Source: a bacterium (GTDB lineage: Bacteria; Acidobacteriota; Terriglobia; Terriglobales; Acidobacteriaceae). Taken from it: a stretch of 62,206 nucleotides of DNA. The stretch lies in NCBI GenBank assembly GCA_026225095.1, contig JAMFSC010000001.1:1-62206 (forward strand). Reading direction: 5' to 3'. The translations under genes and the position numbers were made by a program. The notes beneath the pieces are model-generated. The model was given only the letters and a program-made list of their open reading frames with translations. It searched no databases and was not told the DNA's origin. Below, one piece after another: positions 25,322 to 42,640 of this stretch (position 1 is its first letter; each line of letters begins with the position of its first letter).

Positions 25322-26747
25322 ATGATCGGCCCTGCGCTCGCACGCAGACCAGATCACGCAAGGTCAGACTCGTTGGAGCGCTCCCCTGTCCTCGCCTGGC
25401 CCCAACCCGGCCCTCCTCTCTGCCCTTGCCCGCTCCATCCTCGCCGGAGAACAGACTGCGGAGGCCATCGCCACCCGCTGCGCGCAGACCCTCGGCAAGT
25501 CTTACCCTTGGCTCCGCCCCCTCGCCACCCGCTTCCTCCAGACCGTCGCCGACCGTCCTCGCCCACGCCATCGAGAGGTCGTCCACTTCCTCCGCGCCGA
25601 CCGTCCCTTCGCAAAGATTCTCGCCCGCCGCACAAAGCTCCTCCACATCGAACGCTGGCCCCTCGAACCCCAGCCGATGCGGCCCATCGCCGCCGCCCGC
25701 GACTGGAATCTCCTACCACTCGAAACCGTCGCAAGCCTCGCCGCCTGGCTCAACCTCGACCCCCCCGACCTGGCGTGGTTTGCCGACCTCAAACGCCTCA
25801 ACACCCGCGACCCCGCCGCCGCCCGCCTCGACCACTACCTCTACCGCGTCCTCGCCAAGCCCTTCTCCCATCTCCGCCTCATCGAGATCCCCAAGCCCCG
25901 CCTCAAACAGATCCAGCGCCAGATCCTCTCCCAGATTCTCGACCTCATCCCCCTCCACCCCGCCGCCCACGGCTTCCGCAAAGGCCGCTCCATCAAGACC
26001 TTCGCCGCGCCCCACACCGGTCGCCGCGTAGTCCTCCGGATGGACCTCCAGAACTTCTTCCCCACCATCTCCGGAACCCGCATCCAGGCCCTCTTCCGTA
26101 CGATCGGCTACCCTGAACCCGTCGCCGACCTCCTCGGCGGCCTCTGCACCAACGCCACTCCCGCCATCGCATGGCGCAATCCCGGCATCGACACCACCCC
26201 CGCCGCCCTCCGCGAAGCCCGTCGCCTCTATGCCCGCCCCCATCTGCCCCAGGGAGCCCCCACCTCCCCCGCCCTCGCCAACCTCTGCGCCTTCCGCATC
26301 GACTCCCGCCTGACCGGCCTCGCCCAATCCGCCCAGGCCACCTACACTCGCTACGCCGACGACCTGCTCTTCTCCGGAGACGAAGCATTCGCAAGGCACA
26401 TCGACCGCTTCTCCCACCACGCCGCCGCCATCCTCCTCGAAGAGGGCTTCACGGTCAACCACCGCAAGACACGCATCATGCGCCAGTCCACCCGCCAGCA
26501 TGCCGCCGGTCTCATCCTCAACGAGCGCCTCAGCCTTCGCCGCGCCGACCTCGATCTCCTCGAAGCGATCCTCACCAACTGCGTCCGAAAAAGCCCCGAA
26601 ACCCAGAACCGCGAGGCCCAACCCGACTTCCGCGCCCACCTCACCGGCCGCGTCAGCTTCGTCGAGATGATCCATGCAGAAAAGGGTGCATCCCTCCGCA
26701 CCCTCCTCAACCAGATCGTCTGGCCACAAGACTGGGGAAGTCCCTGA
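25322..26747 (+). CDS. Retron-like reverse transcriptase, probably frameshifted near its 5' end
   Basis: RNA-directed DNA polymerase of the retron or retron-like bacterial type. From the in-frame ATG at 25677 there are 356 residues with the RT blocks: 'KPRLKQIQRQIL', 'HGFRKGRSI', 'VVLRMDLQNFFPTI' (first catalytic Asp), 'PQGAPTSPALANL' and 'YTRYADDLLFSG' (catalytic YADD at 226-229), then a thumb-like C-terminus. The frame stays open upstream to 25326 and encodes family-like sequence ('LARSILAGEQTAEAIATRCA', 'RHREVVHFLRADRPF'), but there is no ATG/GTG/TTG in it. The neighbouring frame offers ATG 25322 or TTG 25373 and reads 'SPVLAWP' up to a CCCC run at 25400-25403. Removing one C there joins both frames. 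It stands alone between a cupin gene and a lipid kinase. Confidence 0.85.
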
Positions 26748-33128: not shown

Positions 33129-34289
33129 ATGTGCATCCCGAATCGCGCGCATTCCATCTATTGCATTCTTCCCCCGCACATCCTGATCAATATCGCCAAG
33201 CGAGGTACACCGGAGCAGCGTGATGCTGTGCTGGAGACGCTCTCGGTGGATCAGAGCCTCCGCGCAGTCCGCTCCCAGTTTTCATTACTCGGCGGAAACA
33301 AGATCGCCCACGAGTCTCTCACCGGCACCCCGCCCCAAAAGCAGAGAACCATCTACGACGCGAAGACGACCCAGGTCCTGCCCGGCACCTTCGTCCGTGC
33401 CGAAGGTCAACCCCCGGTGGGGGACCAGGCCGTCAACGAGGCCTTCGATGGGCTCGGCAACACCTTCGACTTCTACTTCAAGTCCTACCAGCGCAATTCG
33501 ATCGACAACGCAGGCCTGCGCCTCAACGCAACCGTGCACTACGGTTCGAAGTACGACAACGCGTTCTGGAACGGGCAGGAGATGATCTTCGGCGATGGGG
33601 ACGGTGTTATTTTCAACAACTTCACCTCCTGCATCGATGTCATCGGGCATGAGCTGACGCACGGCGTCACTGGAAGCGAAGCGAACCTCGTCTACCAGGG
33701 TCAGTCCGGAGCCTTGAACGAGTCCATCTCGGATGTCTTCGGTTCCTGCGTCAAGCAGTTCGTCAAAAATCAAACCGCCGACCAGGCCGATTGGCTGATC
33801 GGTGAAGGGCTGTTGGCCAAGGGGATCCAAGGCGTCGCGCTTCGCTCCATGAAGGCTCCCGGAACGGCTTTTGACGATCCAAACCTGGGCAAGGACGATC
33901 AGCCCGCCGACATGGCGCACTACGTCCAAACGGCCTCCGACAATGGGGGCGTCCACACGAATTCAGGCATCCCCAACCACGCCTTCTACCTCGTGGCCGC
34001 CGCCATTGGGGGCTACTCATGGCTCAAGGCAGGGCAGGTCTGGTACGACACCGTGACCGACCCAAGGCTCAAGTCGAACGCCAACTTTGCGACCTTTGCC
34101 AACCTCACGATTCTCAACGCGGGCCGGCGCTACGGATCCTCCAGCCCCGAGAAAGCGGCGGTCAACAACGCGTGGCATCAGGTCGGCGTTCTCAAGCAGC
34201 CTCTCTCCGTATCCAGCCAACCGTTGAATCCGAGCCAGCGCGGCGAAACAAGGCCCAGCAACGGCGGAACCCAACCATCCCAACGATAA
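33129..34289 (+). CDS. Protealysin-like M4 family metallopeptidase
   Basis: Thermolysin-like zinc protease of the protealysin subgroup. The 386-residue protein has no signal peptide and a short propeptide with the protealysin motif 'CILPPHILINIAKRG' (about 12-26). Zinc site HELTH is at about 174-178, with the third ligand in 'NESISDVFG', and the substrate-side histidine region is 'DNGGVHTNSGIPNHAFY'. The Ser/Pro/Asn-rich tail after about 355 is low complexity. The ATG at 33129 has AGGAGA upstream. Like protealysin it would be made as a cytoplasmic precursor. The emfourin-like gene upstream fits the known inhibitor-protease pairing. Confidence 0.93.
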   Translation: MCIPNRAHSIYCILPPHILINIAKRGTPEQRDAVLETLSVDQSLRAVRSQFSLLGGNKIAHESLTGTPPQKQRTIYDAKTTQVLPGTFVRAEGQPPVGDQAVNEAFDGLGNTFDFYFKSYQRNSIDNAGLRLNATVHYGSKYDNAFWNGQEMIFGDGDGVIFNNFTSCIDVIGHELTHGVTGSEANLVYQGQSGALNESISDVFGSCVKQFVKNQTADQADWLIGEGLLAKGIQGVALRSMKAPGTAFDDPNLGKDDQPADMAHYVQTASDNGGVHTNSGIPNHAFYLVAAAIGGYSWLKAGQVWYDTVTDPRLKSNANFATFANLTILNAGRRYGSSSPEKAAVNNAWHQVGVLKQPLSVSSQPLNPSQRGETRPSNGGTQPSQR

Positions 34290-35958: not shown

Positions 35959-36867
35959 ATGATCGTCCGCTCCCGTCCCGGAGTCCTGGAGCTCTTCTCC
36001 ATCTACCGGCTCTCCATGCTCCCCCGCATCGCGCCTCAGCTCCTCGCCAACATCCTCGTCTCCATCGTCGTCATCTTCATCGAGCACCTCTGGCCCATCC
36101 CCTTCCGCGGCTGGACGGTCGCGCCCTTCACCCTTCTCGGCATCGCCCTCTCCATCTTCCTCGGCTTCCGCAACAACGCCTGCTACGACCGCTGGTGGGA
36201 GGCCCGCCGCCAACTTGGAGCCCTCGTCAGCGAGATGCGTTCCTTCGCCCGCGTCCTGGTCACCCTGCCCTCCGCCGACCTCGGCCGCCGCCGTACCATG
36301 GTCCTCGCCGCCATCGATTACACCTACGCCCTCATGAAGCACCTGCGCGGAACCCCCATGCGCGCCGAAACCGATCCCCTCACCGCCATCTCCCCTGGCC
36401 GCCCCCTCGTCCACAACATCCCCGACGCCATCCTCCGCGACATCGCCACCGCCTACGGAGCCATGCTCACTGAAGGAGAGATCGGCGAGCAGATCTACCG
36501 CGTCCTCGACGACCATCTCTCCAGCATTACTACCCTCCAGGCCGCCTGCGAGCGCATCCGAGGCACACCCACCCCCTTCGGCTACACACTGCTCGTCCAC
36601 CGCATCTCGTACGTCTTCTGCTTCCTGCTCCCCTTCAGCCTCGCCGGATCTCTCGGCTATGCAACCCCCGTCTTCTGCGCCATGGTCTCCTACGCCTTCT
36701 TCGGCCTCGACGCGTTGGGCGACCAGCTCGAAGAGCCCTTCGGCTCCTCCCTCAACGCCCTCCCGCTCCAGGCCCTCGCCAAGACCATCGAGATCAACCT
36801 CCTCGAGGCCCTCGGAGAGTCCAACCTTCCCGCCCCACCGCTCCCGGTCAACTCCGTCCTCGTCTAG
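35959..36867 (+). CDS. Bestrophin-family membrane protein
   Basis: A 302-residue bestrophin/UPF0187 protein, bacterial homologues of pentameric anion or cation channels. Seen: two N-terminal membrane helices (about 20-40 and 55-75), 'LGFRNNACYDRWWEARRQLG' (about 72-91), a signature of the family, and further helices at about 210-250 with 'FFGLDALGDQLEEPFG', the Ca2+-clasp-like acidic motif region. ATG 35959 has AAGGATC upstream. The start is 98 bp from the divergent uvrC-like start. The physiological ion is unknown. Confidence 0.9.
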   Translation: MIVRSRPGVLELFSIYRLSMLPRIAPQLLANILVSIVVIFIEHLWPIPFRGWTVAPFTLLGIALSIFLGFRNNACYDRWWEARRQLGALVSEMRSFARVLVTLPSADLGRRRTMVLAAIDYTYALMKHLRGTPMRAETDPLTAISPGRPLVHNIPDAILRDIATAYGAMLTEGEIGEQIYRVLDDHLSSITTLQAACERIRGTPTPFGYTLLVHRISYVFCFLLPFSLAGSLGYATPVFCAMVSYAFFGLDALGDQLEEPFGSSLNALPLQALAKTIEINLLEALGESNLPAPPLPVNSVLV

Positions 36868-36878
36868 GTCAGAGGACC

Positions 36879-38261
36879 TCAAGCCCCCGCGATCATCATC
36901 CCCTCAACCCGGATCGTCGGTGCGGCGCTGGCCGAACGAAACACCAGGTCATTCCCGATCGCCACAATATTCCGGTACATGTCCTTCAAATTTCCCGCAA
37001 TCGTAATCTCCTCAACCGGGTACGCGAGCTCACCATTTTCAATCCACATCCCACTCGCCCCCTGCGAGTAGTCCCCCGTCACCAGGTTCACCCCGAACCC
37101 CATCGTCTCCGTCACATAGAGCCCCTGCTTCACATCCCCGATAATCTCAATCGGCGACGCCGTCCCCGGCTCCAGGTAAAAATTCCCCGCCCCAATCCCC
37201 GGAGCCCCCGCCAGCCCCCTCGAAGCGTTCCCCGTCGACTTCATCCCCAGCTTCCGCGCCGTATAGCAGTTCATCACGTAGTTCTTCAACACACCCTTTT
37301 CGACCAGCACCGTCCGCCGCGTCGGCAGCCCCTCCCCATCGAACGGAGCCGTCCCAAACCCTCCAATCCCGTCGTGCACCATCGTCCCGTCATTGACGAC
37401 CGTCACATTCTCCCCCGCCACCTGCTCCCCCAGCAGGTCCGCGAAGAACGTCGCCTTCCGGTAGATCGCATCCCCATTCGCTGCGTCGAAGATATTCCCG
37501 ATGATCGACCGCGCAATCTCCGGCGAAAACACCACCGGCGCCGCCTGCGTCTTCACCTGCCGAGCCCCCAGCCGCCTCAGAGTACGCCGCGCCGCCTCAT
37601 GCCCGATCTCGACCGGATCCTCCAGCTTCTTCACCGTCCGCGAGCTCGAATACCAGTAGTTCCGCTGCATCCCGCCATCGGCCGCCTGCGCAATCGGAGC
37701 CGCCGAGAACCCGCAGTAAGACCGCCTGTAATCCCCCACGAACCCCCGCGAGTTCACCATCACCTTCCGCGAAGTCGACGTATCGAAGTCCCCGCCACCC
37801 GAGTTCGTGATCCGCGGGTCATACCCCATCGCCGCCTCTTCCACCCGCCGCGCCACCTCGATCCGATCCGCCGGAGGCTGTTCATTCACATCCTCAAAAT
37901 AGAGCTTCAAATCCCCCTCAAGCTGGCCAAACTCCTCCACCTCCGGAAGCCCGACAAACGGATCCTCCCCCGTAATCCGCGCCAGCCCCACCGCACCCGA
38001 GACCAGCCGTTCCAGCGACTCCGCCGAAAAGTCCGAAGAAGAGGTATTCGCCGACCGCTGCCCCAGGAACACCCGCAGCCCGATCGCCCGCGACCCCGAC
38101 TCCTTCAGCTGCTCCACCTGCCCCAGCCGCACCAGCGCCGAAAACTCCTCGCCCTCATATACCACGGCCTCGGCATCGGAAGCCCCCGCCCGCAGAGCCC
38201 GCCCTACTACATCCAAAGCCATCTGCTGCAAATCGTTCGTGACTTCGAGTTCAGTGATCAT
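36879..38261 (-). CDS. pmbA: TldE/PmbA subunit of the TldD/TldE metalloprotease
   Basis: Partner of TldD in a heterodimeric zinc protease that degrades unfolded or small proteins and matures some peptides (microcin B17, and CcdA breakdown in E. coli). The 460-residue protein lacks the HExxxH zinc motif, as expected for TldE, and has typical stretches such as 'SGSRAIGLRVFLGQRSANTS', 'YDPRITNSGGGDFDTS', 'DGEGLPTRRTVLVEKG' and 'WIENGELAYPVEEITIAG'. ATG 38261 overlaps the stop of the upstream mini-protein gene by 11 bp, indicating translational coupling. It is the last gene of a five-gene cluster that starts with tldD at 40694. Confidence 0.93.
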   Translation of the reverse strand: MITELEVTNDLQQMALDVVGRALRAGASDAEAVVYEGEEFSALVRLGQVEQLKESGSRAIGLRVFLGQRSANTSSSDFSAESLERLVSGAVGLARITGEDPFVGLPEVEEFGQLEGDLKLYFEDVNEQPPADRIEVARRVEEAAMGYDPRITNSGGGDFDTSTSRKVMVNSRGFVGDYRRSYCGFSAAPIAQAADGGMQRNYWYSSSRTVKKLEDPVEIGHEAARRTLRRLGARQVKTQAAPVVFSPEIARSIIGNIFDAANGDAIYRKATFFADLLGEQVAGENVTVVNDGTMVHDGIGGFGTAPFDGEGLPTRRTVLVEKGVLKNYVMNCYTARKLGMKSTGNASRGLAGAPGIGAGNFYLEPGTASPIEIIGDVKQGLYVTETMGFGVNLVTGDYSQGASGMWIENGELAYPVEEITIAGNLKDMYRNIVAIGNDLVFRSASAAPTIRVEGMMIAGA

Positions 38262-38583
38262 CGTTGTAGCTTTCCTCTTCTGGTTCGATTGCCAAGCTTG
38301 CGGTGCGCAGCGTTCCGTCAAAGCAATCGCCAAGAGAGCAGCCTTCGTTGCGCTGCCTATGCTCCGCACGCTCAGGCATCCTGCCGTTTTCGGAAGACGA
38401 ATAGAGGCCGACAGCCCCCTTGCACTCCGGGCAACGTAGGCGTGGATCCGCCATTCTTATAGCTATCGACGCGGCGACAGTGTGCCACCCATAGACACGA
38501 CCCAGTCCCGGGCGCTTGTGCATATGCTTTACGTCAACGATCCGCATGGACGAAGGATACAGATATTCGGAAGTAAGTATCAC
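38251..38583 (-). CDS. CxxC/EHR mini-protein B, unknown function (paralogue of 38936..39244)
   Basis: A 110-residue protein. The central part reads 'RLRCPECKGAV...AEHRQRNEGCSLGDCF': a CxxC pair, an EHR triad and a second Cys cluster that probably bind one zinc. Aligned with the second mini-protein at 38936-39244 it shares K.G.G..Y..W..V, RC..C.G.V, P..EHR and CS.G in the same order. The GTG start 38583 overlaps the nucleotidyltransferase stop (GTGA), and the stop overlaps the pmbA start by 11 bp, so it is made as part of the tldD-pmbA message. No family name is known to me. Confidence 0.78.
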   Translation of the reverse strand: MILTSEYLYPSSMRIVDVKHMHKRPGLGRVYGWHTVAASIAIRMADPRLRCPECKGAVGLYSSSENGRMPERAEHRQRNEGCSLGDCFDGTLRTASLAIEPEEESYNDDH

Positions 38584-38888
38584 ACCGCATACAGCACTTC
38601 GTGAGTCCTCTCAACCTCTCTCCGGAAGTAAGGATTGCGAATAGCCGTGCGCATGACAAGATCGACCTTCCGCGAGAACAGGTGCATCAGCCCTTCCCTT
38701 AGGCCGAAATAAGTCTCAAAGTTTTCGCCGAGTTCGAGAGGCTGGAACTCCACCAGGAAGTCGATATCACTCCGCTCCGCATCGAAGTCATCCCGCAGCG
38801 CCGACCCAAAAACGGCCAAACGGCGCACCCGATACTCACGGCAGAGCCGTTCGATCTCGGTGCGCCGTTCTGTGATCTGCGCAATCAT
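38580..38888 (-). CDS. MNT/MntA-type nucleotidyltransferase domain protein
   Basis: A 102-residue minimal nucleotidyltransferase with 'VRRLAVFGSALRDDFDAERS' and 'SDIDFLVEF' (GSx10DxD catalytic pattern, about residues 28-47), followed by the 'LREGLMHLFSRKVDLVM' end typical of MntA-type proteins. Such proteins are usually antitoxins that AMPylate a HEPN toxin, but no HEPN gene lies beside it. It is coupled at its stop to mini-protein B and 47 bp downstream of mini-protein A. It might modify a component of this cluster, which is inference only. Confidence 0.85.
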   Translation of the reverse strand: MIAQITERRTEIERLCREYRVRRLAVFGSALRDDFDAERSDIDFLVEFQPLELGENFETYFGLREGLMHLFSRKVDLVMRTAIRNPYFRREVERTHEVLYAV

Positions 38889-38935
38889 AGGCCTATCCTA
38901 CTCGATGAGGCCCAACAGCAGCGCTCTCGATCTCC

Positions 38936-39244
38936 TTACCGAACCGGATGCTCCGAGACCCGTGCCCCGCGTCCATCGGTCGCCTTGCGGAAGACCATTC
39001 CACCCGAGCAAAACTCTCCGTCGATCGCCGACCGATGCTCCACATACGGAACCGTCCCCGGCTTGCCCGTCCGGCCCAGGATCTTTACCTCACCCTGGCA
39101 GTCCTTGCAGCGAAACTCCGTATCCAGATCAGACATCGCCACGGCCACGTTCTTGACCTTCCAGAACGGCTCATAACCGCCTCCGAGCTTTACTCGTCTG
39201 CGCTTCACTTCACACTCATACATCTTCTCGCGCTCGGCTGCCAT
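38936..39244 (-). CDS. CxxC/EHR mini-protein A, unknown function (paralogue of 38251..38583)
   Basis: A 102-residue protein. It has 'EFRCKDCQGEVKILG', 'VPYVEHRSAIDGEFCSGGMV': a CxxC, an EHR and a CS.G group in the same order as mini-protein B; a conserved 'W.V....VA' precedes the CxxC. Probably one zinc is bound. ATG 39244 is 4 bp past the tldD stop and has AGGAAG upstream. It lies between tldD and the nucleotidyltransferase. No membrane segment or signal peptide. Confidence 0.78.
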   Translation of the reverse strand: MAAEREKMYECEVKRRRVKLGGGYEPFWKVKNVAVAMSDLDTEFRCKDCQGEVKILGRTGKPGTVPYVEHRSAIDGEFCSGGMVFRKATDGRGARVSEHPVR

Positions 39245-39248
39245 GGTT

Positions 39249-40694
39249 TTATCTTCCTGTTCCCCCGACCGTCATGCGGTCGAGCTTCACTGTGGGCATC
39301 CCTACGCCGACCGGCACGCTCTGCCCGGCCTTGCCGCAGGTTCCAATACCTTCATCGAGGGCTAGATCGTTCCCCACCATCGACACGTACTTCAACGCCT
39401 CCGGCCCATTCCCGATCAAGGTCGCACCCTTCACCGGCCGAGTCACCCGACCATCTTCGATCAGGTATGCCTCGCTCGCCGAAAACACAAACTTGCCGTT
39501 CGTGATGTCCACCTGCCCACCGCCGAAGTTCACCGCATAGAGCCCGCGCTTCACGCTCTTGATGATGTCTTCCGGCATATCGTCGCCGTTCAGCATGTAG
39601 GTATTCGTCATCCGTGGCATCGGGATATGGTGATAACTCTCCCGCCGCCCCGACCCCGTATTCGGCATCCCCATCAGCCGCGAGTTCAGCTTGTCCGAAA
39701 GAAACCCCTTCAGAATCCCGTTCTCGATCAGAACCGTCTCCTGCGTCGGTGTCCCCTCGTCATCCACATTCAGCGATCCACGCCGATTCGCCATCGTCCC
39801 GTTATCGACGACCGTCACCTTCGACGAAGCCACCTTCTGCCCCATCAAACCCGCAAACGCCGACGTCTTCTTCCGGTTGAAGTCCGCCTCCAACCCATGC
39901 CCCACGGCCTCATGCAGCAGCACCCCAGGCCAACCCGGCCCAAGCACGACTTCCATCTCACCCGCCGGAGCCTCCACCGCATCCAGCTGCAGAATCGCCG
40001 TCCGGGCTGCCTCCGAAGCAAAGTGCTCCGGGCTCTTCTCCCCTTCGAAGAAGTCGAGCATCACCCGGCCACCCCCACCTGAAGTCCCCTTCGAGGTATT
40101 GACCCCGTCCTTCGCAATCACAAAGACATTCAGCCGGGCCAGAGGCTGCGTATCGCTTGCAAACGTCCCATCGGACGCCGCCACAAGAATCCGCCGCAGC
40201 TCATCGTTGATCCCCGCCCGCACCTGCGTAATCCGAGGGTCGTAAGCCCGAGCCGCCCTGTCCGCCCGCTCGATCAGCTTCAGCTTCGCCGCAATCTCCG
40301 AGTCCGTCTCCGCCCCTGCAACCGGATAGAGCGAAGCCGAAGCCTCCGTATGCCGGAAGCCGCTCATTATCTCCTTTGCCGGGCCGCTCGCGATCAACGC
40401 CGCAGTCCGCGCCGCCTTCAGCAGCCGCTCACTCGAAAGATCGTCCGTATACGCATACCCGGTACGCTCACCCGAAAGCACCCGAATCCCACACCCGACG
40501 CTGATCCCCTGGCTGGCCGTCTTGACCAGGCCCTCATCCACACCCAGAGAGGTCGAAGTCACCGACTCAAAATAAAGATCCGCATACTCCCCACCCGCCG
40601 AAAGTGCCTCCCCGAGGCAGCGCTCCATCAACCGTTCCGACAGGCCTAATTTCTCGATGAAGTAACGTTTGTGGTCCGCGTGGGAAAGTGTCAT
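39249..40694 (-). CDS. tldD: TldD catalytic subunit of the TldD/TldE metalloprotease
   Basis: A 481-residue zinc metalloprotease subunit with HEAVGHGLEAD (HExxxH at 261-266). Other family blocks are 'DGVNTSKGTSGGGGR', 'VVDNGTMANRRGSLNVDDEG' and 'GGGQVDITNGKFVFSASEAY'. With TldE (pmbA, 36879-38261) it forms a heterodimer. It is the first gene of the cluster tldD - mini-protein A - nucleotidyltransferase - mini-protein B - pmbA. A HigBA-like pair lies 100 bp upstream on the same strand. In E. coli TldD/E degrades the antitoxin CcdA. Confidence 0.95.
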   Translation of the reverse strand: MTLSHADHKRYFIEKLGLSERLMERCLGEALSAGGEYADLYFESVTSTSLGVDEGLVKTASQGISVGCGIRVLSGERTGYAYTDDLSSERLLKAARTAALIASGPAKEIMSGFRHTEASASLYPVAGAETDSEIAAKLKLIERADRAARAYDPRITQVRAGINDELRRILVAASDGTFASDTQPLARLNVFVIAKDGVNTSKGTSGGGGRVMLDFFEGEKSPEHFASEAARTAILQLDAVEAPAGEMEVVLGPGWPGVLLHEAVGHGLEADFNRKKTSAFAGLMGQKVASSKVTVVDNGTMANRRGSLNVDDEGTPTQETVLIENGILKGFLSDKLNSRLMGMPNTGSGRRESYHHIPMPRMTNTYMLNGDDMPEDIIKSVKRGLYAVNFGGGQVDITNGKFVFSASEAYLIEDGRVTRPVKGATLIGNGPEALKYVSMVGNDLALDEGIGTCGKAGQSVPVGVGMPTVKLDRMTVGGTGR

Positions 40695-40794
40695 CTCTGC
40701 CTATGATAGGCTACGCATGGGCCGACGGCAACTCACCGTTCCTTCCTCCGCTCAAACCCCTTTGTTTGCCATACCCCTCTTGCCTTAACCGCGC

Positions 40795-41169
40795 TCAGGA
40801 AGAGGGAGCCACGACCTTCTTTCTCCCCCTTCCAGATTTTTCGCGCTTCTCCGTAAGATCCCCCAGCTTCAACGTGTAGGGCTTCCGATTAGGAAACTCC
40901 GCCACCAGGCGCAGCCTTCCACCCATCGCCTCCACATAGCTGCTCATCGTCGAGAGCAGCATATCCGCCCTCCGCTCCATCCGCGAGACACTATCCTGTT
41001 CCACCCCAAGAAGCTCCGCCACCCGCTCCTGAGTCAGGTGCTGCACCGACCGAAGATCCCGCAGCGTCATCTCCTCCTCGATCATCTCCTGCGTCCGCGC
41101 CGCAATCTCAGCTCGCATCTCCGGGGGAAGACTCTTCAGAACACTCTCAAGGGACATGGCCATCTTCAT
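40795..41169 (-). CDS. XRE-family antitoxin (HigA-like)
   Basis: A 124-residue helix-turn-helix protein. Residues about 40-90 ('LTQERVAELLGVEQDSVSRM') form an XRE HTH, and the acidic N-terminus 'QEMIEEEMTLRDLR' and the basic C-terminal tail suggest the antitoxin side of a type II system. The ATG at 41169 overlaps the toxin stop (ATGA). Autoregulation by the pair is expected for the family. tldD starts 100 bp downstream. Confidence 0.85.
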   Translation of the reverse strand: MKMAMSLESVLKSLPPEMRAEIAARTQEMIEEEMTLRDLRSVQHLTQERVAELLGVEQDSVSRMERRADMLLSTMSSYVEAMGGRLRLVAEFPNRKPYTLKLGDLTEKREKSGRGRKKVVAPSS

Positions 41170-41522
41170 TCTCCTTCGCGCTTCAGTTTCGCAAGGTGGT
41201 CTGCGTACCGTTCATCGGCGATCCGAATGAGCCGCTCGTAGAATCTACTCTGCTTCACTTCCGACTTACTGCCGCCCGTAAGCAGGATCGCCTTCCGTCT
41301 CGGATCGAAGGCTACCCGCCACTCACCGTCCGACAGGGTAATTCTCAACTCCTTCATGTTCGAGTAGGAGGAACCCTTCAGTGTGTCGACGTGCGGCCTG
41401 TTCAGTTGCGGGCCGAACTGTTCCAGTACTCCGGCCGCCGCGAACACCGCAACTTGTACGGCTCTGGGCTCAGCGCGAAGCTCTGCGAGATAGGCTTCGT
41501 GAACTTCAACGACCCAGTTCAT
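41166..41522 (-). CDS. HigB/RelE-like toxin (phage-derived Gp49-like family)
   Basis: A 118-residue protein with the RelE-like core: 'EVHEAYLAELRAEPRAVQ', 'VDTLKGSSYSNMKELRI', 'GEWRVAFDPRRKAILLTGGS' and 'FYERLIRIADERYADHLAKL'. These are HigB/Gp49-type mRNA interferase features. The toxin comes first and the antitoxin second (HigBA order), with a 4-bp overlap. It lies close upstream of tldD. Confidence 0.87.
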   Translation of the reverse strand: MNWVVEVHEAYLAELRAEPRAVQVAVFAAAGVLEQFGPQLNRPHVDTLKGSSYSNMKELRITLSDGEWRVAFDPRRKAILLTGGSKSEVKQSRFYERLIRIADERYADHLAKLKREGE

Positions 41523-41577
41523 TCCTACAGTATGACCTCAAATCCATATGCCGTCAAAGGCATTTTACCTTGACGAT

Positions 41578-42483
41578 CTACCGCCCCCCACTCGGATCCC
41601 CGCTCCCCGCCACATTCAGATCCACCAGTGTCCCCGGCTCCCCCGGTGGATAACAGTTCCCATCCTTCCCATAAGTCGCCGCACAAGAAGCCGTCACCTC
41701 CGGCCGCCGTGGCGACTGCGCATACTGCCACACCACCACATCCGAAATCCCACTACCCCCCCTCGCCGGTGGAGCCACCGTACACCCCGGAGCCGGACCC
41801 GCCGGCGCGCAGGCATCCTGATAAACCCAGACCGCGACCGGACGCCGATGCTCCGCCACCACATGCTCCCGAATATCCTGAATCGTCGTCACCCCCTTTC
41901 CCGGACCATCCGGAGCTGGCTGCCCACTCGCATAAACCCCCGGCCTGTAGTAGGAGGCCGCCACCGCCTCCGTCCACCCAAACAGATACGCCGCCTGCTC
42001 CTCCAGCAACCGACCACCCTCCTCCTGGTCCAGAAAGAGAATCGTCCCGGCCGGGAAACCCTCCGCCTTAGCCGCCGCAACAGCCTTCACCGCATCCTGC
42101 CGCCCCAACTCCCCCGGCTTCATCTTCGCGGCGACAATCTGCCTGTCGAACCGCCCATTCGCCAGCACCAGGAACCCGTACCCCATCGCCCGCAGCGCTG
42201 CCCGCTTGCCCAGCCAGCCGTTGGTCTTCTCCCCTGGAGGCGGAGTCAGCCAATAACCCGTATAGGCGAACTGCTTCTTCAGCCGCCCCATCGCCTCATC
42301 CCCCGGGTATTCGTTCCGATCGAACCCAACGAAGTCCGCCACAGCCGCAGCGGGCTGTGGCGTCCGTTCTTGCGGACCCGCATCCACCTTCCGCGCCCCG
42401 CAAGACCCAACCCCCGCCAACGCCATCGCCAAACCAACTTCGAGAAGCCGCAAGCACCCACCTCCAGATAGACTCTTCAACAT
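41578..42483 (-). CDS. Glycoside hydrolase-like (Rv2525c-like/DUF1906) exported protein, possible lipoprotein
   Basis: A 301-residue protein with a signal peptide and possible lipobox (VGSC, Cys about residue 28). The domain starting 'DFVGFDRNEYPGDEAM' resembles the DUF1906/Rv2525c-like TIM barrel that also includes GH25-like proteins; 'TGYWLTPPPG', 'GTILFLDQEEGGRLL' and 'YYRPGVYASG' match its strands. The active-site acidic residues cannot be placed with certainty. Expected outside the cytoplasm. The start ATG 42483 lies where the signal peptide begins. Confidence 0.72.
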   Translation of the reverse strand: MLKSLSGGGCLRLLEVGLAMALAGVGSCGARKVDAGPQERTPQPAAAVADFVGFDRNEYPGDEAMGRLKKQFAYTGYWLTPPPGEKTNGWLGKRAALRAMGYGFLVLANGRFDRQIVAAKMKPGELGRQDAVKAVAAAKAEGFPAGTILFLDQEEGGRLLEEQAAYLFGWTEAVAASYYRPGVYASGQPAPDGPGKGVTTIQDIREHVVAEHRRPVAVWVYQDACAPAGPAPGCTVAPPARGGSGISDVVVWQYAQSPRRPEVTASCAATYGKDGNCYPPGEPGTLVDLNVAGSGDPSGGR

Positions 42484-42640
42484 CGAACGTTACCAGCGCC
42501 ACCCAGTATCAACGCAACTCGGCGTCTTTTCCGTCATCCAAACGTCATCTTGGAACGTCGGCCTGTCCACCCCACCTGGCATGAGACCATCAGAGCCGAG
42601 CCGAATCCACGCAGCGATACCTGATCGAGAGCCTGAAACC

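Follow-up and report, generated by a model that had tools for sequence, protein, structure and literature searches.

Two small proteins encoded between tldD and pmbA, the genes for the two subunits of the TldD-PmbA metallopeptidase, were studied in a 62,206-nucleotide stretch of DNA (the window) from a bacterium of the family Acidobacteriaceae (assembly GCA_026225095.1, contig JAMFSC010000001.1). By sequence comparison the two mini-proteins, A and B, belong as divergent paralogues to a single family of small proteins, PF27389. Strong members of this family were found in 61 distinct genomes and in 60 of these they lie at the tldD-pmbA address, with looser relatives occurring elsewhere. The address is accompanied by invariant residues, purifying selection, repeated gene overlaps and tandem duplications. 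As a tentative explanation, which we prefer to the others considered, we propose that A and B are putative metal-binding paralogues acting as accessory subunits of TldD-PmbA.

The mini-protein family at the tldD-pmbA locus

Open reading frame and domain analysis of the window gave the following genes, in the order of their transcription:

40694-39249, minus strand: tldD, catalytic subunit of the TldD-PmbA metallopeptidase, with HExxxH and C-terminal TCGKxGQ present
39244-38936, minus strand: mini-protein A, 102 amino acids (aa), A-type member of the PF27389 family
38888-38580, minus strand: MNT-type nucleotidyltransferase, 102 aa, PF01909
38547-38251, minus strand: mini-protein B, 98 aa from the ATG supported by homologues (the open frame extends to a GTG at 38583), B-type member of the PF27389 family
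38261-36879, minus strand: pmbA (tldE), non-catalytic partner subunit, its start overlapping the end of B by 11 base pairs (bp)

An earlier reading made from the letters of the window alone (the sequence-only reading) had put these genes in this order on one strand, which is confirmed by the coordinates and strand, and its 4-bp gap between the tldD stop and mini A and 11-bp overlap of B with pmbA were both correct. Mini A is separated from the MNT gene by 47 bp. The GTGA overlap claimed between the MNT gene and mini B is real as a property of the open frame, but it is doubtful as a gene joint because the B homologues, mostly 96-102 aa long, align from the internal ATG at 38547 and not from the GTG at 38583. 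If B begins at this ATG the gap is 32 bp, and the overlap was set aside as evidence of coupling. No Rfam match at gathering scores was found within 36000-42500, and a promoter and terminator scan gave results near shuffle level.

Both protease subunits are recognizable from their domains. TldD of the window scored 574.5 bits against NF008006 (cutoff 513) and contains PF19289, PF19290 and PF01523. The same three M103 domains were all above cutoff in PmbA (PF19289 at 270.9 bits), which scored 347.7 bits against the equivalog NF008268, under its cutoff of 438. Of 60 mini-carrying loci, 59 have HExxxH in TldD and all 60 have the C-terminal TCGKxGQ, while none of the 48 PmbA proteins tested from such loci has HExxxH. 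The sole miss in TldD is G505 (Acidobacterium palsa_139; genomes and loci are cited by our G and L labels), where the tldD match is split into two blocks in different frames and is followed by an intact mini B (L145 and L129, the same DNA). These features are shared with Escherichia coli TldD/TldE (PmbA) of MEROPS family M103, which likewise has HExxxH and a C-terminal Cys motif in TldD together with a non-catalytic PmbA partner. The available portions of the published descriptions of the E. coli enzyme include no accessory subunit, whereas here small proteins are encoded between the subunit genes.

A and B share 27% identity, and a profile-profile comparison of an A-only with a B-only alignment gave a probability of 88.8 and an E-value of 2.5e-6. 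The precomputed PF27389 label is carried by 120 listed proteins of the 702 A homologues, the best of them 91% identical to A, the label being seen on these homologues and not on A itself; it is also carried by all 51 listed B proteins, window B (P0121) included, and by six of seven homologues of the G516 mini. In our own Pfam scan, run without the PF27389 model, the minis received only sub-cutoff matches. The identity, the profile match and the common label agree with the paralogy claimed in the sequence-only reading. A tree of 88 distinct minis separates a B clade of 15 rows from an A clade of 73 rows; window A belongs to a clade made up mainly of A1 copies (28 rows, 100/99), and window B groups with one Granulicella protein (100/97).

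The motif R-C-x2-C-x-G … H … C was observed to be kept in all 88 distinct aligned minis, with R45, C46, C49, G51, H70 and C79 (A numbering) invariant. The putative metal ligands are C46, C49, H70 and C79 in A and C39, C42, H63 and C70 in B, and this Cys-Cys-His-Cys set, a putative zinc motif, is predicted to hold a single metal ion in each mini. The AlphaFold2 (AF2) models have a mean pLDDT (predicted local distance difference test) of 84.0 for A and 88.4 for B, and neither has a segment of three or more residues under pLDDT 50. Conservation extends along the whole length in both the A and B alignments, without a leader/core layout. In addition, a basic strand, K14-R15-R16-R17, is conserved at 90% or more among the A-type minis and is absent from the B type.

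More distant stand-alone minis weakly match CoiA_N (PF25164), DUF7828 and DUF7830 over the C-x2-C … H … C segment, but their scores are below all gathering cutoffs. As examples, a distant relative in G142 scored 24.2 bits against DUF7828 (cutoff 25.7) and 18.9 against CoiA_N (cutoff 26.3), while B scored 12.2 bits against DUF7830 (cutoff 27.5) and A gave no match. Unlike those families, the minis stand alone without a nuclease domain, and A and B are linked to tldD. Short stand-alone relatives with C-x2-C … EH … C were also noticed elsewhere in Acidobacteria genomes (L114, L115, L125, L126 and L127), those scanned being weakly CoiA_N/DUF7828/DUF7830-like.

Linkage, gene coupling and selection

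The count of 60 out of 61 combines the genus set, a family sample of 250 genomes and two additional named loci, giving 66 labels with four duplicate records and one extra copy in G024. L129, L131, L132 and L133 are identical in DNA to G505, G405, G469 and G499 and were counted once, and the G024 copy was counted apart. The sampled family was taken to be Acidobacteriaceae on the strength of these four named records with identical DNA and of the taxonomy given for two others. The interval between tldD and pmbA was found to hold one to three minis in carrier genomes. In another set of 61 genomes, the window's own and its relatives, A-type minis occur in 30, all in the window's genus, where 37 genomes were searched, its own included; in all 30 they lie beside tldD, none being unlinked, and the other seven have none. 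Two minis are present in the interval in 24 of these 30 carriers (A1 and A2, or A and B in the window) and one in the remaining six. Among the 61 distinct genomes with strong family members, only the window and the Granulicella isolate bog_405 combine both types in the interval, bog_405 with A1, A2 and B one after another.

When named genomes were scanned with the B alignment, six loci came up (Granulicella, Acidobacterium twice, Terracidiphilus and two less defined Acidobacteria); in all six B comes after tldD, and in five it is followed by pmbA. In the 250-genome family sample 43 genomes match any mini and 35 match strongly (E 7.6e-18 or better), 34 of these 35 being linked; only part of the first-look candidates was scored there (19 of up to 71 per genome), and minis may therefore be undercounted. 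In the eight genomes whose matches are all weak (E 1e-11 or worse), no such match lies by tldD or pmbA, and no TldD or PmbA match was found around 13 weak-match loci, those of the eight genomes included, within about 3 kilobases (kb) to either side, as far as the contig reached. A 297-genome sample of the phylum gave 16 genomes matching an A-led alignment and nine matching the B alignment; only the window's genus gave strong matches, the two matches in other families (G211 and G271) being weak. The outcome that would have refuted the sequence-only reading, scattered homologues or joints not conserved in relatives, was not observed: linkage to tldD and pmbA holds, tight or overlapping joints recur, and the association is more than chance.

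The start of the first mini is no more than 30 bp away from the tldD stop in 44 of 64 loci and no more than 150 bp away in 62 (the 64 include the four duplicate records). In 17 of 60 genomes its start codon overlaps the tldD stop (TAATG), an overlap frequent among A-type minis; the automatic count was 18, and G562, whose mini open frame starts further on, was removed. Mini starts were set by script, with an inner ATG picked in some genomes. At the other end, eight loci from five distinct genomes, the window included, have a B that terminates at the projected start of pmbA or inside it, the pmbA starts of relatives being projected from the alignment with the window.

Median ratios of nonsynonymous to synonymous substitution rates (dN/dS) were 0.075 for A1, 0.079 for A2 and 0.085 for B, compared with 0.071 for pmbA and 0.030 for tldD, these ratios being rough as the median dS is above 1 and near-saturated. 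The pairs kept after saturated dS values were dropped are 45 of 66 for A1, 59 of 66 for A2, 57 of 66 for tldD, 54 of 66 for pmbA and 6 of 21 for B. The ratios indicate strong purifying selection on the minis, like that on pmbA.

The nucleotidyltransferase and other genes of the interval

The sequence-only reading had suggested that the nucleotidyltransferase between A and B could modify one of them. The protein matches PF01909 with 46 bits and PADLOC PDC-S09 at E 1.2e-37, with a GS-x11-DxD motif read by eye, and its gene is co-directional with that of A, which would suit a five-gene system in which it acts on the minis or on TldD-PmbA. Its distribution speaks otherwise. MNT matches occur in 17 of the 61 genomes formed by the window's own and its relatives, and in the other 16 they are at other places, with no listed place by a known tldD place (tldD was not searched in G047 and G049). 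No MNT match was found in any other fetched tldD locus, so that among the loci fetched the interval holds this gene only in the window. Of nine loci fetched for homologues elsewhere, seven were examined and six have an overlapping small downstream gene that is HepT-like above the Pfam cutoff. The gene resembles the type VII toxin-antitoxin system MntA-HepT in matching NTP_transf_2 and, weakly, MntA (NF047752, 39 bits, below the cutoff of 60), but it differs in having no HepT gene beside it, its neighbours being A and B at 47 and 32 bp, and in being unlinked to minis elsewhere. We therefore rejected the five-gene system, which is very improbable, and consider the MNT gene likely to be a solitary, unrelated insertion or passenger outside the mini/tldD-pmbA system.

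The interval tolerates unrelated genes in other genomes as well. A HicB-like gene was observed in the interval or just after the minis in six mini-carrying genomes (L067, L069, L070, L073, L082 and L128; five called by blastp and L128 by eye, the one scanned giving PF15919 at E 1.1e-10). An inorganic pyrophosphatase lies between mini and pmbA in L176, L177 and L178, and DUF5995-like genes lie between tldD and pmbA in L166, L173, L216, L225 and L228 (one of each scanned with Pfam). Helix-turn-helix (HTH) genes were found in the interval of G541 and G458, and genes resembling short-chain dehydrogenases/reductases (SDR) and major facilitator superfamily (MFS) transporters were recognized by eye in others. 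The idea that the interval gathers solitary antitoxin genes (MNT, HicB-like and HTH candidates) was considered and no theme is claimed, as many unrelated genes are also there. Among 31 loci that have both genes but no mini, including two that do not belong to the family, the tldD-pmbA gap is at most 60 bp in nine, 61-400 bp in six and more than 400 bp in 16, and many such intervals hold unrelated genes. Within the genus, loss of the mini accompanies a broken-up interval; this association was not used as evidence because seven of the eight genus members without a mini fall into a single clade of the PmbA tree and hence represent few events.

Further genes of the window were also noted. Directly upstream of tldD, at 40795-41522 on the minus strand, is a toxin-antitoxin-like pair in which a Gp49-type protein (PF05973) overlaps an HTH protein with Pfam matches that narrowly miss the cutoffs. 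A thermolysin-type (M4) metallopeptidase is encoded at 33129-34289 on the plus strand, about 2.6 kb from pmbA. A retron-type reverse transcriptase at 25677-26747 on the plus strand (RVT_1, E 3.4e-22; in PADLOC, RT_other at E 1.3e-139 and RT_outgroup 'retron' at E 3e-133) is followed by a diacylglycerol-kinase-like gene (PF00781). Outside the window, the extra A-type mini of G024 (L100:4204-4512, minus strand) has same-strand sensor-kinase-like and KaiC-like genes, named by eye.

A candidate accessory subunit and its alternatives

According to the available part of the literature, about 60% of bacterial genomes contain TldD/TldE, whose function has been termed elusive (PMC5810440). The enzyme is described there as a shell in which unfolded peptides reach the active site through a narrow channel with little sequence preference (PMC5810440; PMC10885120), and its specificity is ascribed to access through this channel (PMC5810440), which leaves room for a gatekeeper. 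An accessory subunit that controls access or delivers clients is the best explanation for a small folded protein with a metal motif that is encoded between the subunit genes, duplicated and maintained there by selection. The mechanism beyond address, invariance and selection is one that we infer: the minis would be translated together with both protease subunits, would bind the TldD-PmbA shell and, once bound, would control which unfolded peptide ends enter the narrow channel, as an adaptor or a gate, while the paralogues A1, A2 and B may give different client sets. A bolder version, which is possible but which we hold with more reserve, is that TldD-PmbA of Acidobacteriaceae is a three-part enzyme in which the PF27389 zinc domain is the third subunit at the channel and tandem duplication (A1, A2 and B) has diversified the diet of the protease.

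Several observations weigh against an accessory subunit. A TldD-family match was found in 242 of the 250 family genomes, and only 43 of the 250 have any mini match (35 strong), so that TldD-PmbA does not need a mini. With the profile, no mini was detected in the DNA fetched from 28 mini-less family genomes, although this DNA fell short of pmbA in five, and in 20 of the mini-less genomes the fetched DNA was the 3' part of tldD with its downstream region. Presence and absence on an 81-row PmbA tree need 17 changes, of which at least 14 are forced by well-supported branches (24.8 with shuffled labels); therefore, the mini has often been lost or gained. Furthermore, the G415 mini is on a 12.9-kb contig without a TldD or PmbA match, making it the sole unlinked strong genome, and G024 carries a further A-type copy far from tldD besides its linked one. 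Fold searches of the PDB gave no clear match of the minis to a solved fold, with the plain Foldseek listing covering B only.

Some of these observations suit minis that are passengers of the operon with an unrelated cellular job, tldD-pmbA being a tolerant slot. The frequent coming and going, the off-site genome and the off-site copy would all be expected, and the interval also holds pyrophosphatase, DUF5995, HTH, HicB-like, SDR- and MFS-like genes in different genomes. However, no other interval gene was seen to keep its address across two deep clades, and linkage in 60 of 61 genomes together with overlapping stops and starts is hard to explain by tolerance alone, which leaves this reading unlikely, if the strongest of the alternatives. 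Slightly less likely is a regulatory role in which the minis bind nucleic acid through a CoiA_N-like zinc domain and control the operon or a wider gene set. The weak CoiA_N and DUF7828 matches of a distant stand-alone relative and the basic strand of the A type point this way, but the B type lacks that strand, the CoiA_N, DUF7828 and DUF7830 scores are all under the Pfam cutoffs and the nuclease part of CoiA is missing from these proteins of about 100 aa.

The sequence-only reading had offered the minis as substrates, adaptors or precursors. An adaptor remains our best guess and a substrate is still a rival, whereas a precursor is unlikely in view of the whole-length conservation without leader and core; the predicted interval genes, for the most part assessed by eye, showed no modification enzyme. 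On account of the whole-length conservation we also rejected a ribosomally synthesized and post-translationally modified peptide (RiPP) precursor processed by TldD/E, which would be expected to have a leader, a variable core and modification enzymes close by. As substrates, the minis would be clients, that is, short-lived regulators whose level is set through TldD-PmbA digestion. The operon linkage would suit this, and in the available part of PMC5810440 the disordered CcdA41 antitoxin fragment is degraded by TldD/E in vitro and full-length CcdA is not. Since the enzyme is proposed there to accept only unfolded polypeptides, the compact AF2 fold of the minis stands against this reading, as does their conservation over the whole length, and we regard it as improbable, slightly more so than the nucleic-acid regulator.

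The literature on TldD/TldE/PmbA, CoiA, PF27389 and Acidobacteria, in its titles and abstract beginnings, gave no description of the minis or of a third subunit. Pfam already joins the A homologues and B under PF27389 through its precomputed label; the linkage to tldD-pmbA is new information on this family. If A and B are accessory subunits, the resulting three-part enzyme would be the first case of an accessory subunit of M103 peptidases known to us. A co-encoded family locked to both subunit genes offers a handle on the regulation or client choice of TldD/TldE, and the genomes of the genus with and without a mini (30 and 7 of 37) provide natural comparisons.

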